Shown in pieces: positions 1,017-22,307 of a DNA stretch of 64,000 bases; the stretch's first letter is position 1; every line of letters begins with the position of its first letter. The stretch is from an uncultured Lachnospiraceae bacterium (GTDB lineage: Bacteria > Bacillota > Clostridia > Lachnospirales > Lachnospiraceae): the NCBI GenBank assembly GCA_947644545.1, contig CANRZW010000014.1:1-64000 (forward strand). Direction: 5' to 3'. Below the pieces are notes generated by a model. That model saw only the letters and a list, made by a program, of their open reading frames with translations, made no database searches and was not told the DNA's origin. Made by a program: the position numbers and the translations under genes.

Positions 1017-1958
1017 CTAAAACAATGTCGTATCTTTATCAAACTTACCGGCAATCTTATTCGCAGTCATTACGAGGAGAAATCCGAAAATAGACTGATA
1101 CAGCGCAATTGCAGACGCAAATGCCATTTCTCCGTTCTTCACACCGCTCCTGTAAACAAAAACATCGATCAGGTCTGTTGTCGGGAACAATACGGGATTT
1201 AAGTTGGTAAGTCCGATCACCATGTTCAAATTACCTTTCAGCATGTTTCCGACCGAAAGAAGAAACAATATAATGATCGTAGGTTTCAACAGCGGAAGTG
1301 TTATCTTGCGGATGCACTGGAGTTTTGTCGCTCCATCCACTCTTGCTGCCTCAAAAAGGGAAGAATCTATTCCCGTCAAAACGCCATAATAAATAATCGA
1401 GTTATAACCGCAGCTTTGCCATGTGTTCACGATCGTAAGGATTGCAATCCACTTTTTCGGCTGCGCATAAAAGTCAATGGGTTCCTTCCCAAAAGAAATC
1501 AGCAGCTGGTTCAAAAGTCCTGAATCTACATTAAGCAGCGCATACAAGATCGCACCTGTTACCATCCACGAGATAAAATATGGAAGAAACATAAGACTCT
1601 GCGAAAACTTAATGAACATTTTTCCACTGATCTCACTCAGCATAATGGCTACGGCTACAGCAAAGAATGTCCCTACGATAAAAAACAGCAGATTGTACAT
1701 AATCGTAAGGCCTGTGGATCTCATAGCCGTCGAAATGTTATTAAAAAAGAATACAAAATTCTTGTAAATCGGATCAGCCCATGGACTTCCGAATATGCCT
1801 CCTTTAAAGTTATAATCTTTGAATACCAGAACAATACCTGTCATTGGAAAATAGGAAAAAACAAGTAAAGCAAGCACTCCCGGCAGGGCCAGGATATATA
1901 ATGGAATATCCTGCTTCAACTTCCCAAATCTCTTCTGTCTGCCCTTCTCTGTGTACAT
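1017..1958 (-). CDS. Sugar ABC transporter permease, LplB/YteP type
   Basis: Second permease of the CUT1-type sugar importer. With the chosen start at 1958 (ATG, AAAGGAG eleven bases upstream) it is 313 residues; an upstream in-frame ATG at 2015 lacks a comparable site and falls close to the promoter. About six membrane segments; the EAA loop (FEAARVDGATKLQCIRK, then LP) is near the C-terminal third. It is first in the operon, behind its own promoter at 2002-2029, and separated from the upstream regulator gene by a hairpin. Family assignment is firm from the paired LplB/LplC order; the substrate is unknown. Confidence 0.9.
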   Translation of the reverse strand: MYTEKGRQKRFGKLKQDIPLYILALPGVLALLVFSYFPMTGIVLVFKDYNFKGGIFGSPWADPIYKNFVFFFNNISTAMRSTGLTIMYNLLFFIVGTFFAVAVAIMLSEISGKMFIKFSQSLMFLPYFISWMVTGAILYALLNVDSGLLNQLLISFGKEPIDFYAQPKKWIAILTIVNTWQSCGYNSIIYYGVLTGIDSSLFEAARVDGATKLQCIRKITLPLLKPTIIILFLLSVGNMLKGNLNMVIGLTNLNPVLFPTTDLIDVFVYRSGVKNGEMAFASAIALYQSIFGFLLVMTANKIAGKFDKDTTLF

Positions 1959-2001
1959 CTCATTATCCGCTCCTTTCGTTTTGTCATCATAATGTTTCTC
2001 A

Positions 2002-2029
2002 AGTATACCCTGCAAAGCATTTGGTGCAA
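2002..2029 (-). promoter_or_regulatory. Candidate sigma-A promoter of the sugar permease operon
   Basis: On the minus strand TTGCAC and TATACT are separated by 16 bases. The predicted transcript would start about 35-40 bases before the permease ATG at 1958. It lets the permeases be expressed separately from the regulator gene upstream. Confidence 0.5.
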
Positions 2030-2037
2030 ATAAAAAA

Positions 2038-2087
2038 GATACGCATTCCTTTCACTTTCCTGTCAAAAAGTTCAAAAAATGCGTATC
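2038..2087 (-). terminator. Inverted repeat with T run after the AraC-type regulator
   Basis: GATACGCATT and AATGCGTATC form a perfect 10-bp stem around a long loop of about 30 bases, followed on the minus strand by six T. It lies 24 bases past the regulator stop codon. The large loop makes it weaker than a textbook terminator. Confidence 0.5.
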
Positions 2088-2110
2088 AATTTCATATTTT
2101 TATGCAATTT

Positions 2111-4311
2111 TTATCTCATGCGCTTTACCGCAGATGGCGAAATGCTATATTTTTTCTTGAATTGCGCCGAAAAATAGGATGTTCCTCCATATCCACATAT
2201 TTCGGCCACTTTCTTTACGCTGATATCCGGATTAGAGAGCAGCATTTCTCTGGCGTATTCCAAACACAGATCACTGATAAATTCCGGAAAAGTGACTCCC
2301 ACATATTCATTGAACAGTCTTGAAAAATAAGAGACAGATATATGAAACTTTTCTGCCACCTGCTCCACCGATATGCCCGCATCCCGATAATGCTCCTGTA
2401 TGTAACTGACGGCATCCAGCATGTTCATCCTGATCGTCTTTTCCTGATAAACACTGTTCTCCAGGCAAACACCGCTGATCAACTGTTCCAAATATTTTTC
2501 CAGATCATTTCTGTCATACAATGTAGTCAGCTTAATGTAGTGATCCAAATAGCTTTCCCTGCTCCTCTCAGTCGTTCTGTCCACCCCATAGACACATTCT
2601 GAGAGCCGCACGCAGAAAGCCGCTAATGAAACCAATGCTCTTTTTATATCATAATCGGAAAGATGATCGATGATCCCGGGCACCTTATCCAATGATTCCT
2701 TCTGCATCCCCTTCTTTACCATTTCAATGAGCTCGTCATAAATACCGCCCGGAACATCCTGAGATATTTTATTCTTAAGCATCTCCGTGTCCATACCGAC
2801 TCTGCTCTGCCCAAGCAAATGGTATTTGGCGATCGTCTGTAATTCTCTGAATTGTGTCCTCAAATTTCTCTCTTCTTCTACCAGTCCTGAAAGCACACAG
2901 AAAATGTCACTGCCTGCATTCTGTCCGATCCTCTCACATTCTGTTTCCAGGATTTTCTTCATTGTTTCTTTGTCTTTCAGTTTTTCCTGATAAACCTGCT
3001 CCTTTAAGATCAGCAGAAAGCAGAAAGACTTCGGCTCACTATAAGACAGAATCTTACAACTGTCAAAATGTGTCTCCATTGCAGCATACACCTCTTCCAT
3101 AACCGTTTCACTGACTGCAGGCTGTGAAGTCCAATACAGGATCATGAGGCAGTGCTCCTCTCCTTTTCCGATCTGCAGCACGCCGGGTATATCGATCTCC
3201 TCCTCATCACTGCCGAGAAAACGTAAAACTTTATCAGAATGATACTGCTGTGATATTCTGTAAATTTGATTCAGAATTTTTTCACTTGTTATATCCGCCT
3301 GGCGTTTGCTGTAGCTTTCATCAACTGACATTATTTCTGACTCGGTAAGGCATCTGAAGAAATACTCCAGGGGAAAATACAACTTATTTGCCAGCCAAAA
3401 CGCTAATAAAAAGACGATGATAAAACTGGCTCCCACCACCAGATATACCTTTCCACCAATCTCATCCATCTGCTCCTGAATAATCTGATAGTCCTGGAGC
3501 ATAACAAAATAGATCTCTTTCTTTTCACTGAAAATACCGTTACACAAATATTTGTTTCCGTCCAGTGTGATTTCTCCACTCAGAGGCAGCGCGGCATTCT
3601 TCTCAGTCGACATATATTCCCATACCTGCCGGCAATGTTCGCTTGCTATTTTACCCCCCCCCCTTAAAATAATCGATCCGTCTTTCCCAAACGCCAAAAA
3701 CATGGAATCTTCCAGATTCTCATCCAGAAGCTGCTTTTCCAGTGCATCCAAATCAATTGAATAAATAACCCCTTTCCTCCAAGACTGTCTCTTTGTGTTA
3801 AAAAGACGCAGAGGTTTCTCCTGTCATCCGCCTCTACGAAGAGCATCTGTGTATCATTTTCCGTTTCCATAATCTTTTCTTCAATCTGCTTTTTTTCCTC
3901 CGGTAACGGGTAATACCAGCCATAATATTTAAAGTCCGTTTCGTTACGAAACAAACATACATAATTCTCCACCCCATTGTTTATACTCATCCTGTAGAGA
4001 TAGTGCCCGGACTCATATTCCTCTTTCCAATGGTCATTTGTCGTACTGACATATTGTTTGATCGTCGCCTCATCCCACGCAGTCTGGAGCTGTTTTCTCC
4101 ATGTGTCAATATTACTGTCAATAACATTATCAAGATTATTGAGCTGCATGATTGCCATATGGTATATTGTCGCCCTTGTATGCAGGCTGAAAAGTCCCAC
4201 AACTCCAATAGCCACAACGGCTACTGCCAGGGCCGCAATTACACTATAGCTTAACAATAAAATATTTCTATACTTTTTATTAGTAATATCAATCTTAAGC
4301 TCTGCCCTCAT
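2111..4311 (-). pseudogene. Membrane-anchored AraC-family sensor-regulator, split by a one-base frameshift
   Basis: About 733 codons in two overlapping frames. The upstream frame (4311 down to the stop at 3664) carries a membrane segment at about residues 17-42 and most of an extracytoplasmic sensor region. The downstream frame (about 3775 to 2111) carries the rest of the sensor, a second membrane segment, a cytoplasmic linker and a C-terminal AraC helix-turn-helix pair. Joining the frames with one extra base in the run at 3769-3775 restores a continuous sequence (LGGKG then VIYSIDLDALEKQ). The start ATG at 4311 has GAGGGAG about ten bases ahead; a TTG at 4374 has none. Intact homologues sense an extracellular sugar and activate the neighbouring permeases. 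Either the gene is inactivated here or the base was lost in assembly. Confidence 0.8.
3654..3663. repeat. Homopolymer of ten C (ten G on the coding strand) inside the AraC-type sensor gene
   Basis: Ten consecutive C on the plus strand, read as Arg-Gly-Gly-Gly in the downstream reading frame. With ten G the downstream frame is open; nine or eleven would break it. It is the longest homopolymer I noticed in the window and lies within the predicted extracytoplasmic domain, about 110 bases after the frameshift. Confidence 0.9.
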
Positions 4312-16019: not shown

Positions 16020-16805
16020 TCACCCCTGTGCATATCTGGTCAGGAATTGCTTCGTCCGTTCCTCCTGCGGATTATCGATCACCTGTCTGGGAACTCCTTG
16101 TTCCACGATCACGCCTTCATCCATAAAGATCAGCTGATCGGACACATCTCTGGCGAATGCCATCTCGTGCGTGACGATGATCATGGTCGTCTTCCGATCT
16201 GCAAGCGCACGTATAACCTTCAAAACTTCTCCTGTCAGCTCCGGATCCAGCGCAGATGTAGGTTCATCGAAGCACAGGATATCCGGCTGCAGCGCCAATG
16301 CCCTGGCAATCGCCACACGTTGCTGCTGTCCTCCGGACAGCTGATGGGGATAGTGCGTCATGCGCTCCGCCAGTCCCATCTGCCGAAGCAGCGCTTCTCC
16401 ATGCGCCTCTATCCGCGCATAGATCTCCTTCTTATGCTGCTTAAAATCAGGCTGCTCCTTCGCCAGAAGCTTCTCGGACAACATGACATTCTCCAAAGCC
16501 GTATACTGTGGAAACAGGTTGAAAGACTGGAATACCATCCCGAAGTGCAGACGCTTGGTGCGAAGTCCCTTTTCCTGCTCCCAGCGAGGCATGGAAGCGT
16601 CAAAAAGCGTCTCTCCCCTCACCGAGATCGAACCGCCATCCGGCGTTTCCAGAAAATTCAGACAACGCAGAAGCGTCGTTTTGCCGGAACCCGAAGAGCC
16701 GATGATCGCCAGTGCGTTCCCCTCTTCCAGCGAAAAACTAACATTGTCGAGCACCTTCGTATTATCAAACCGTTTCTCGATATTTCTCACTTCCAAAATC
16801 GCCAT
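16020..16805 (-). CDS. Amino-acid ABC transporter ATPase (importer 1)
   Basis: Energises the polar amino-acid importer encoded with 16848-17504 and 17561-18439. 261 residues from ATG 16805 (AAGGA nine bases upstream). Walker A GSSGSGKT at about 36-43, the Q-loop at VFQSFNLFPQ, signature LSGGQQQR, Walker [15 protein letters not shown] and the switch histidine in THEM are all intact. Closest to the GlnQ/HisP class. Last gene of the operon binding protein-permease-ATPase. Confidence 0.96.
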   Translation of the reverse strand: MAILEVRNIEKRFDNTKVLDNVSFSLEEGNALAIIGSSGSGKTTLLRCLNFLETPDGGSISVRGETLFDASMPRWEQEKGLRTKRLHFGMVFQSFNLFPQYTALENVMLSEKLLAKEQPDFKQHKKEIYARIEAHGEALLRQMGLAERMTHYPHQLSGGQQQRVAIARALALQPDILCFDEPTSALDPELTGEVLKVIRALADRKTTMIIVTHEMAFARDVSDQLIFMDEGVIVEQGVPRQVIDNPQEERTKQFLTRYAQG

Positions 16806-16847
16806 GTTCTCTGATCCTTCCAAATAGTTCTGTTTGTCCGGCAGATT

Positions 16848-17504
16848 TTACCGGAAATAATCCAGCTTCCGCTCAATGTAATTGAACAACAGCGTCAGCA
16901 CCCCCACAAACACCAGGTAAAACACGCCCGTATAGAACAGCGGCCATGTCAGACCATTGCTCTTCATAAAAGAATATCCCGCAAAGGTCAGCTCATAGGC
17001 CGCGATCATGCGCGCCAGAGACGTATCCTTAACCAGCGTGATCACTTCGTTCGACAGCGGCGGCACGACTCTTTTTACCATCTGCAAAAGTGTGATCCGG
17101 AAAAAGATCTGGCTCTTCGTCATGCCCAGCACTTCTCCGGCCTCCCGCTGACCCGCCGGAACGCCTTCGATCCCGCCCCGGAAGATCACCGAGAAATAGC
17201 AGGCATAATTAATGCTGAATGCCACCACAGTGGCCGTGATACGGCCGCTTTCATTACCGCTCCATATATTGTGCCCCAGCCACAGGCCCGGCCCATAGAA
17301 AATGATGATCAGCTGCAGCATCAGCGGCGTGCCGCGGATAATCCACACCAGCACCTGGATCAGATACCGCGGCAGCCTCCATCTGCTCATGGAACCAAAT
17401 GCAAGAACCAGCCCGAAGGGCAGCGAAAACAGCAATGTAAACAGAAAAATCTGAAACGTCGTCAACAGACCGTCCAACAGGGCTCGTGTCACATTCCAAA
17501 ACAT
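16848..17504 (-). CDS. Amino-acid ABC transporter permease (importer 1)
   Basis: Membrane channel of importer 1, HisM/GlnP class, probably a homodimer because only one permease gene is present. 218 residues, about five membrane segments. The EAA-type loop (REAGEVLGMTKSQIFFRITLLQ) is at about residues 135-160. AAAGGAGA lies just before the ATG at 17504. It is 56 bases behind the binding protein gene, and the gap contains a hairpin at 17524-17550. Confidence 0.95.
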   Translation of the reverse strand: MFWNVTRALLDGLLTTFQIFLFTLLFSLPFGLVLAFGSMSRWRLPRYLIQVLVWIIRGTPLMLQLIIIFYGPGLWLGHNIWSGNESGRITATVVAFSINYACYFSVIFRGGIEGVPAGQREAGEVLGMTKSQIFFRITLLQMVKRVVPPLSNEVITLVKDTSLARMIAAYELTFAGYSFMKSNGLTWPLFYTGVFYLVFVGVLTLLFNYIERKLDYFR

Positions 17505-17560: not shown

Positions 17561-18439
17561 CTAGTTTGCAGGTACTACGATCACCTGCGCATTGTTACAG
17601 TAAGCGTTGGTACACTCCATCGCCGAGGTGGTCTCCGTGGTCAATGTCATACCGTTCCACACCACATCGATCGTCTTTGACTCTAACTCCATAATCTTGT
17701 TATCCCAGTCGATCACCACAAACTGTACTTCCACACCAAGCTTCTCTGCCGTGAGGCGGGCCATATCTGCGTCAAATCCGATCCACTCTCCGGCTTCGTC
17801 TTTATAGTCCATCGGCTCAAACTCCGTGATGCCCACGATCAGGCTCCCTTTTTCCTGAATATAGGCTACATCGCTGTCCTCTGTGGATGCCGCAAACTCC
17901 ACTGTATCCTGCGCCACCAATGCTTCCTGTACGCCGTACATCTCTGCGATCTCCTGCATGGTACCGTCGGCATAACTTTCTCCGAATACGGCATTGATAT
18001 AGGAGGCCAGATCGGAACCCTTGCGGCATCCCACGCCATATTCTTCCGTCGTCAGCTCTGTCGTGTGCGTCAATCCCGGATAGCTGGTGCCTTCTCCGAT
18101 CATGGCACCCGCCATCAGCAGGTCGATGATCGCCGCATCAGATGTGCCCGCCGCAACCTCCATCAGTGCATCGGCCTGAGAGGTCACCACATTTGTCTGA
18201 TATCCATTATCCTGTGCAGCAGCCTCACCTGCGGAGCCCGCCTCCACCGCATACACCAAACCATCTCCTGCGGAAGACGAAGCGTCTGTCTCCTCTGCGC
18301 CGGCAGCGTCCGCATTTTCCGGCGTATCTGCCTGGGCTTCCTCCTGCGCCCCATCGCTTGCAGCTGCATTGCCGCATCCTGTCAATACCGTACCCACTGC
18401 CATGGATATCGCCAGCATAAGTGCAAATTTCTTTTTCAT
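17561..18439 (-). CDS. Lipoprotein substrate-binding protein with circularly permuted lobes (importer 1)
   Basis: Extracellular solute receptor, 292 residues. Signal peptide with lipobox LTGC (Cys22), acidic low-complexity linker 23-60, then the two lobes of the SBP_bac_3 fold in reversed order. Residues 61-175 match the normal second lobe (YAVEAGSAGE, ADALMEVAAGTSDAAIID, EEYGVGCRKGSD, YADGTMQEIAEMYG). Residues 191-292 match the normal first lobe (YIQEKGSLIVGITEFEPMDY, GFDADMARLTAEKLGVEVQF, IDVVWNGMT) and the protein ends at the strand that normally crosses between lobes (QVIVVPAN). Residues 176-190 join the old C-terminus to the old N-terminus. The arginine that usually follows TxxE in the first lobe and grips the amino-acid carboxylate is Thr270 here. 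AAAGGAGGAG precedes the start. Ligand unknown. The binding protein at 21354-22307 has normal order. Confidence 0.9.
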   Translation of the reverse strand: MKKKFALMLAISMAVGTVLTGCGNAAASDGAQEEAQADTPENADAAGAEETDASSSAGDGLVYAVEAGSAGEAAAQDNGYQTNVVTSQADALMEVAAGTSDAAIIDLLMAGAMIGEGTSYPGLTHTTELTTEEYGVGCRKGSDLASYINAVFGESYADGTMQEIAEMYGVQEALVAQDTVEFAASTEDSDVAYIQEKGSLIVGITEFEPMDYKDEAGEWIGFDADMARLTAEKLGVEVQFVVIDWDNKIMELESKTIDVVWNGMTLTTETTSAMECTNAYCNNAQVIVVPAN

Positions 18440-21353: not shown

Positions 21354-22307
21354 TTATTCTGCCGTTACTGCTTCCGTATACTGTACACCCAGATCGGAGA
21401 TTGTGCCGTCTGCCAGCTTCGCCTCGATCGCCTTATTGATCATATCAAGCAGCGCCGTGTTGCCCTTCTGTACGGCAACTGCGTACTCCTCGGACTCGAA
21501 CGCAGAAGCATCCTCCACGATCTTCAGCCCTTCGTTGTCATCCACATACTTCTGTGCGGTAGCAGAATCGATTACCACTACATCACATTTACCGTTAACC
21601 AGTTCCATCACTGCCTCGGTACCCTTCTTGAAAGCCTCATAAGAGTAACCCATGTCATTGACGCAAATCTCACCGGTGTAACCCTGCACAACACAGATCT
21701 TCTTATCTGCCATATCTGTTGCCGCCGCGATATCGGAATCTTCCTTCACGATCATTACCTGGGTAGCCGTATAATAAGGCACAGAGAAATCAACCGCTTC
21801 CTTACGGTCTTCGGTCACGGTCATCGCTGCGATCGCTGCATCTATCTGACCATTCTGCAAAGCCACCAGCAAAGAATCGAACTCCATATTCTCTATTGCC
21901 GCTGTCATCCCGTTATCCTCTGCGATCTGCTTCGCGATTGCCATATCGATACCGTCATACTGATCGATCACACCGCTTCCCGTCACAAACTCAAAAGGCG
22001 GAAACTCTGCATTCGTACCGAATGTCAGAACACCTTCTGTCCTCGTCGTAACCGTTCCCGCTGCCTCTGCTCCAGCCTCTTCTTCACCGGCTGTCGTCTC
22101 TTCCTCTGCCGCATCTTCCACTGCTGCCTCTGTATCTGCCGCCGCGTCTGTGTCCTCTGCCGCGTTTTCTACAGATGCCTCTGTGCCTGCTGCTTCCGTG
22201 TTCGCTGCATCTGACGCTGCATCCTTTTCTCCTCCGCATGCTGTCAGTGTGGATACCGCCATGGCCATGGCCAGTATCAATGCTGCTGCCTTTGTCGCTT
22301 TCTTCAT
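21354..22307 (-). CDS. Lipoprotein amino-acid-binding protein, normal lobe order (importer 2)
   Basis: Extracellular receptor of importer 2, 317 residues. Signal peptide with lipobox LTAC (Cys24), a long Glu/Ala/Asp-rich linker to about residue 85, then SBP_bac_3 in the standard order: first lobe about 86-190 (GTNAEFPPFEF, YDGIDMAIAKQIAEDNG, AAMTVTEDRKEAVDF with the carboxylate-binding Arg168), second lobe about 191-310 (KKICVVQGYTGE, GKCDVVVIDSATA, EEYAVAVQKGN, LADGTISDLG). GGAGGAG precedes the ATG. Placed last in its operon, after the ATPase with a 207-base gap, unlike importer 1 where the receptor comes first. Ligand probably a polar amino acid. Confidence 0.95.
   Translation of the reverse strand: MKKATKAAALILAMAMAVSTLTACGGEKDAASDAANTEAAGTEASVENAAEDTDAAADTEAAVEDAAEEETTAGEEEAGAEAAGTVTTRTEGVLTFGTNAEFPPFEFVTGSGVIDQYDGIDMAIAKQIAEDNGMTAAIENMEFDSLLVALQNGQIDAAIAAMTVTEDRKEAVDFSVPYYTATQVMIVKEDSDIAAATDMADKKICVVQGYTGEICVNDMGYSYEAFKKGTEAVMELVNGKCDVVVIDSATAQKYVDDNEGLKIVEDASAFESEEYAVAVQKGNTALLDMINKAIEAKLADGTISDLGVQYTEAVTAE

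Follow-up and report, generated by a model that had tools for sequence, protein, structure and literature searches.

Binding proteins of ABC importers in which the order of the chain departs from that of their relatives have been described before. Domain dislocation in periplasmic binding proteins was reportedly set out by Fukami-Kobayashi et al. in 1999, and OpuAC, the glycine-betaine-binding protein of B. subtilis, is order-shifted relative to ProX. A lipid-anchored example is TpMglB-2 (Tp0684), a permuted glucose-binding lipoprotein for which the designation 'Type Ic / Cluster Bc' has been proposed, and whose authors raised anchoring as a possible reason for the permutation (PMC4990184). 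Duplication and fission models of permutation are among the matters reviewed in PMC3320104.

Here we describe a receptor gene from an uncultured Lachnospiraceae bacterium, lying in a window of 64,000 nucleotides (the whole stretch of DNA that was analysed). Its product resembles TpMglB-2 in being, as judged by sequence, a naturally circularly permuted and lipid-anchored binding protein of an ABC importer, and differs from it in family: TpMglB-2 has a Type I (Cluster B) fold and a sugar ligand (PMC4990184), whereas the window protein is homologous to SBP_bac_3 receptors. In TpMglB-2 the permutation creates a fourth crossing between lobes; the order of the window protein (order A, below) would instead remove one. 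In the sections of the TpMglB-2 account considered here there is no mention of a reversal, of a second cut site, or of an orthologue with normal order in the same genus (PMC4990184). For the window protein, a Type I (Cluster B) or MglB-like identity and membership of the OpuAC family were both rejected, with neither a type I family nor an OpuAC family among its Pfam matches up to E 1.

The polar amino acid receptors of SBP_bac_3, such as ArgBP (6svf), 3hv1, and the cystine receptor 3zsf, are homologous to the window protein over both of its segments, and it is the order of the segments that differs. In GlnPQ, SBD1 and SBD2 (6h30) stand in a tandem arrangement, the stage that a duplication route to permutation would traverse, although these are two whole domains in normal order. 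Searches of one open-access library found neither a permuted family-3 receptor nor a comparable recurrent, reversible permutation series among binding proteins. Taking the account as a whole, we consider it very probable that the window encodes the permuted receptor of a one-permease importer, that its order has a single origin in its clade and was reversed in one relative (G013), and that separate rotations occurred elsewhere in Clostridia.

Parts and order of the receptor gene

We name the segments of the fold D1a, the first part of lobe I, and D2n and D2c, the two parts of lobe II; D2c also includes the beginning of D1b, the segment in which the chain returns to lobe I. The parts of the permuted gene and its neighbors are given in Table 1. 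A family profile search of the window's own genome (E 0.001) found no further receptor gene beyond the two listed there.

Table 1. Receptor and importer genes in the window, with the parts of the permuted receptor
Feature	Position	Strand	Basis
Importer ATPase, TcyN/GlnQ-like	16020..16823	-	Below the equivalog cut-offs shown
Importer permease, BPD_transp_1	16848..17504	-	TIGR01726 permease subfamily domain, 60.8 bits vs cut-off 42.2
Circularly permuted SBP_bac_3 lipoprotein gene, D2-D1b-D1a (order A)	17561..18439	-	292 aa, ATG start; Pfam, phmmer, rotation test
Residues 191-292, lobe I N-terminal segment (D1a), normally first; terminates at crossing strand QVIVVPAN	17564..17869	-	Pfam, phmmer, model
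Residues 176-190 (AQDTVEFAASTEDSD), joint from old C-terminus to a stretch resembling the old pre-D1a tether	17870..17914	-	Sequence comparison
Residues 61-175, lobe II (D2) and lobe I return segment (D1b), normally last	17915..18259	-	phmmer, alignments, model
Acidic Ala/Glu-rich tether, residues 23-60	18260..18373	-	Sequence reading; AlphaFold2 pLDDT < 50 for residues 1-56
Signal peptide and lipobox (LTGC), residues 1-22	18374..18439	-	Sequence reading; Cys22 invariant in 32-sequence A1 alignment
Normal-order SBP_bac_3 receptor, internal control	21354..22307	-	Pfam, single stretch, profile 1-129

An earlier reading, made from the sequence alone (the sequence-only reading), had the two lobes trading places. 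The swap of order stands, but the exchanged pieces are not whole lobes: residues 61-175 comprise lobe II together with the C-terminal portion of lobe I, whose N-terminal portion makes up residues 191-292. This composition points to a rotation that placed the new chain ends at the D1a/D2 hinge rather than to a plain exchange of lobes. Beside the lipid-anchored Cys, residues C138, C276, and C281 are invariant in an order-A alignment (n=32). SBP_bac_3 receptors have an Arg that binds the carboxylate of the ligand, and in the alignment with ArgBP the window protein has Thr at this place; because the normal-order orthologues also lack the Arg, substrate and segment order look like separate matters.

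Evidence for circular permutation

The window protein scores 91.9 bits against SBP_bac_3 (PF00497; cut-off 26.4), with the match split over two stretches, and the better stretch aligns profile positions 2-92 with residues 201-291, so that the N-terminal part of the family stands last. The canonical D1a-D2-D1b order within one SBP_bac_3 alignment is not found, the stretches being swapped. Since the family profile scores permuted proteins well above its cut-off, annotation by profile can hide a permutation. Comparison by phmmer with T. maritima ArgBP (6svf) placed residues 194-289 on chain positions 6-102 and residues 60-163 on positions 118-221. The second receptor of the window, chosen in the sequence-only reading as a control, behaves as one, its single Pfam stretch running in the usual order.

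We also scored proteins against a canonical-order profile of 235 positions, built from normal-order proteins, with rotation allowed by writing the core twice. Unrotated, the window protein reaches 176.1 bits (positions 2-107), and with rotation it reaches 321.6 bits (positions 2-234), a gain of 145 bits; an unpermuted alignment, which had been named as the finding that would count against a permutation, thus does not fit equally well. In the 142 normal-order ORFs from which the model was built, rotation adds no more than 0.4 bit; median gains are 141.6 bits for order A (n=119), 55.0 for order B (n=12), and 56.9 for order C (n=4), orders B and C having other cut sites (see below); the smallest order-A gain, -2.1, is that of N200, which covers just 45% of the model columns. 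The order of the Pfam stretches, the phmmer comparison with ArgBP, and the gain in score all agree with the circular permutation of SBP_bac_3 first proposed from the sequence.

In AlphaFold2 models, the window protein shows the strands and helices of its normal-order relative G013 in rotated succession. Mean pLDDT is 77.7 for the window protein versus 89.8 for G013, and pTM 0.65 versus 0.80; the five models of the window protein span 55-78 in pLDDT. The predicted elements of the window protein would fit a two-lobed type II clamp. Sequential Foldseek searches with the G013 model return full-length matches (best E 2.7e-22, to 6svf; TM 0.85 by target for 3zsf_H), and with the window model, as expected from rotation, the top 18 rows each cover 82-111 columns (best E 2.9e-7), which corresponds in length to the lobe I segment. 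VIA-align placed ArgBP on residues 189-286 of the window model. Looser sequential matches across both lobes of the window model are also present, for example to OpuAC.

Distribution of the permuted and normal orders

A conserved lineage of permuted receptors in the Lachnospiraceae had been suggested in the sequence-only reading, and the count of homologues by order agrees with it. At 1e-30, 62 of the 77 genomes of the window's genus have a match, 50 of them permuted and 12 normal, and the other 15 have none at this threshold. Because the same order is seen in 49 other genomes of the genus and in named strains not titled as MAGs, an assembly artefact of the order, the other source of doubt that had been raised, is very unlikely. 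Among the normal-order orthologues in the genus identity is 62-76% per segment, with 82% for G013. Orthologues of both orders at these distances in one genus, together with the apparent reversal in G013, make up a rare natural series on proteins that have been cut and re-joined; as they are close orthologues, they allow breakpoints, linkers, and compensating changes to be read off directly, and what permutation does to a receptor could be measured with near-matched proteins.

Across the family, 74 genomes in an even draw of 397 have a match, 72 of them outside the genus; among the 55 of these 72 that were fetched, 7 are permuted and 48 normal. A scan of named genomes, which favors the query's own order, gave permuted loci throughout the best 80 listed. 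The titles of these 80 records are mostly those of Lachnospiraceae MAGs, with Oscillibacter, Dysosmobacter, and Oscillospiraceae also present, and the named strains with the permuted order among them include Roseburia porci MUC/MUC-530-WT-4D, Oscillibacter sp. PC13, 0.1xD8-71, and 1xD42-87. Separately, a contig listed as viral in IMG/VR has a normal-order orthologue close to its edge (L033, positions 2929-3711, plus strand); this contig may be misfiled bacterial DNA.

Origin of the order in the window's clade and its likely reversal in G013

In a receptor tree built from D1a and D2 arranged in canonical order, 57 permuted proteins and the normal-order G013 form one clade within the normal-order proteins (SH-aLRT 97.7, bootstrap 100), and the same clade is found in a wider tree (100 and 100). 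The permuted operons and G013 likewise form a single clade in the permease tree (bootstrap 100, SH-aLRT 99). By our trees, the order would have arisen once, in the ancestor of the window's clade, and have been reversed once, in G013. Within the clade, G013 groups with eight permuted relatives (SH-aLRT 73, bootstrap 99), several forks between that group and the clade base being weak; with three permuted relatives in the wider thinned tree (bootstrap 98, SH-aLRT 94); and with four in the permease tree (bootstrap 93, SH-aLRT 90). A constraint uniting 26 permuted rows without G013 costs 60 log-likelihood units and is rejected at p 0.049 only.

DNA comparison shows that the signal sequence region and the downstream permease are common to both orders and that two blocks are exchanged. 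The permuted relative G068 has the tether GDAAQTTADNAQTADESDAADTADTANADL ahead of VYAVEAG; in G013, the first part of this tether is kept as the tether, and a stretch like its last part (DTADAAGAEF) links D1a to D2. This hinge linker has 14 residues in G013; of the 55 normal-order proteins that were parsed by pattern (of 142), the 54 others have 20. Base by base, the G013 hinge agrees with the G068 tether at 21 of 30 positions (shuffled mean 11.5), a value reached in 1 of 20000 shuffles, and the agreement is weaker with other near relatives (2, 13, and 35 of 20000 for G027, G071, and G001, respectively); average agreement is 12.2 for 96 permuted tethers and 10.3 for 48 normal hinges.

G013 is likely a reversal to normal order, a reading behind which stands a single assembly. 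That dependence on one assembly leaves room for an assembly fault, or for G013 being a chimera that recombined with a donor of normal order, as does the hinge similarity, which is indecisive taken alone given that the normal-order hinge of G456 reaches 20 of 30. We nonetheless regard either as unlikely, since both segments and the permease are closest to permuted relatives (91% in D1a and 95% in D2), with no normal-order protein in the set above 79% and 70%; since the hinge is short and tether-like, with 9 of 30 bases off the tether, as if diverged since; and since receptor and permease lie on one contig of 195,793 bases. Reversal is thus our preferred reading of G013.

As a separate observation, the 3' end of the G013 gene (L091) has a 12-base direct repeat, TAGAACAGACAA, with a 20-base spacing, that spans the stop codon and is perhaps the trace of a rearrangement.

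Other rotations and cut sites in Clostridia

Wider sampling (a class-wide draw of 391 genomes, plus follow-up) identified three cut sites: order A is cut at the D1a/D2 hinge, order B inside lobe II, and order C earlier in lobe II. Order A is present in other families at 37-47% identity (G744, G617, G579, and G703), in G711, and in more canonical receptors (G043, G044, and G039, also G356, G360, and G948). Order B was found in G706, G826, G571, and G598; in G620, G545, G511, and G665; in G725 and G663; and in one ORF each of L171 and L207, and order C, assigned by eye, in G596, G790, G569, and G539. The ORFs in L171 (at 1448, plus strand) and L207 (at 6259, plus strand) are order-B-like, lie beside order-A genes in named genomes, and have long branches; no permease homologue was found within 1.5 kb downstream of either.

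Each order change counted on the trees may be a gain or a loss, and bootstraps were unsettled in the 131-row, reduced, and permease trees. The receptor tree of 131 thinned rows has 16 order changes, and its well-supported branches force 12 changes between normal and permuted order; removal of seven long rows leaves 12 changes, 11 of them forced, and the permease tree has 13, with 12 forced. AU tests, in which the groups were defined after the tree was seen and A3 and A4 are one genome each, reject single clades of A1+A2 (6e-47), B1+B2 (2.8e-4), and A2+A3 (1.3e-5). If the normal order is ancestral, these results imply at least five separate rotations in the core subfamily, for which six groups are counted (A1, A2, A3, B1, B2, and C), the placement of C being unsure.

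Could there instead have been one ancient rotation common to all permuted groups, with the normal-order relatives as repeated reversals or tree artefacts? G013 has apparently reverted, so reversal is possible, and the deep forks and long rows are unsure. We hold such a history to be highly improbable, however, as the cut sites differ among orders A, B, and C, normal-order relatives sit between the well-supported groups A1, A2, B1, and C in the wider tree, the three pairings are rejected by the AU tests, and the permease tree likewise requires its 13 changes. Separate rotations therefore remain our reading of the permuted groups.

Hinge, anchor, and route of permutation

The gene product would serve an ABC importer of the polar-amino-acid type, one with a single permease, as its membrane-anchored substrate receptor. 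Its chain would pass from signal peptide and tether into lobe II, on to lobe I (D1b), and through the 15-residue joint to D1a, ending at the former lobe-crossing strand, and we infer that it folds as the usual two-lobed clamp, closing on its ligand and docking on the permease as the normal-order orthologues do. In a type II clamp of normal order, the chain crosses between the lobes twice; order A would cut one of these crossings, leaving the D2-to-D1b strand as the sole covalent link between the lobes, and orders B and C would keep both. The lipid anchor is predicted to pull on lobe II, not lobe I, and in each of the three orders the anchored end would lie within lobe II or at its edge. This shift of the anchor, shared by the rotations, and the single covalent strand of order A suggest that anchor side and hinge connectivity are evolvable. 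We lean towards viewing the family-3 receptors of Clostridia in this way, as a recurrent and reversible permutation series with at least five rotations, three cut sites, and at least one reversal within a genus. Provided that the fold is as predicted, the two-lobed clamp survives the loss of one of its two hinge connections together with a move of its membrane anchor, a tolerance relevant to biosensor design and to the way in which importers make use of the anchor.

The most likely route to the order of the window's clade would be duplication, fusion, and trimming. Joint and tether sequences are compatible with permutation by duplication, and the order-A joint (e.g., YGVQEALVEQPASEFTASAEDSDVAYI), in which the old C-terminus is followed by a remnant of the old tether ahead of D1a, reads as such a route would leave it. 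A search for two strong segment copies (75 bits to the window's segments, a level that distant copies could escape) found no tandem-duplicate intermediate in the 301 loci with matches. The permuted canonical receptor of G043 aligns across its joint with GlnPQ (6h30), residues 40-265 matching chain positions 103-324.

Importer operon and selection

The tie to a dedicated permease and ATPase proposed in the sequence-only reading is borne out by the two genes at 16020-17504, both on the strand of the receptor. The permease is below cut-off for the cystine and arginine equivalogs, and a cystine-specific importer (TcyN / cystine permease) was rejected, the ATPase scoring 306 bits versus 406 and the permease 110 versus 300 at the equivalog cut-offs. 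A permease homologue lies within 1.5 kb downstream on the same strand in 117 of 119 order-A ORFs, 9 of 12 order-B, 4 of 4 order-C, and 121 of 142 normal-order ORFs. The median dN/dS is 0.078 in the order A1 clade (202 pairs, 57 genes) and 0.079 in the normal-order genes of the genus (4 pairs, 11 genes). Operon linkage and a dN/dS of about 0.08 in both orders argue that the receptors work, and they speak for the rotated gene being part of a working importer under purifying selection. The altered hinge could be taken as the mark of a decaying or non-functional rearrangement, as could the Thr in place of the family Arg, a residue that is absent in the normal-order orthologues too; with such a dN/dS, presence in 50 of 77 genomes of the genus, and a permease downstream of nearly every order-A ORF, we find decay scarcely credible.

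A working receptor may still have been rotated to no advantage. We see an even chance that the rotation is selectively neutral and unrelated to anchor position or hinge: dN/dS is equal in both orders, tether lengths are similar (medians 20 in order A versus 21.5 in normal order), and both orders are present within one genus, whereas the recurrence of the change, with three cut sites that all bring the anchored end to lobe II or its edge, is suggestive of a role for the anchor.

Two ORFs join receptor and permease in one chain. At L319 (positions 1432-3012, plus strand), an order-A canonical receptor is fused to its own permease in a 527-aa protein with two SBP_bac_3 stretches followed by BPD_transp_1. 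At L258, in genome G023 of the window's genus, a minus-strand ORF (at 2821 on that strand) of 543 aa combines a permease-like part with a second, distant receptor resembling order A; it lies on a long branch, and its D2n match is weak (E 0.041).
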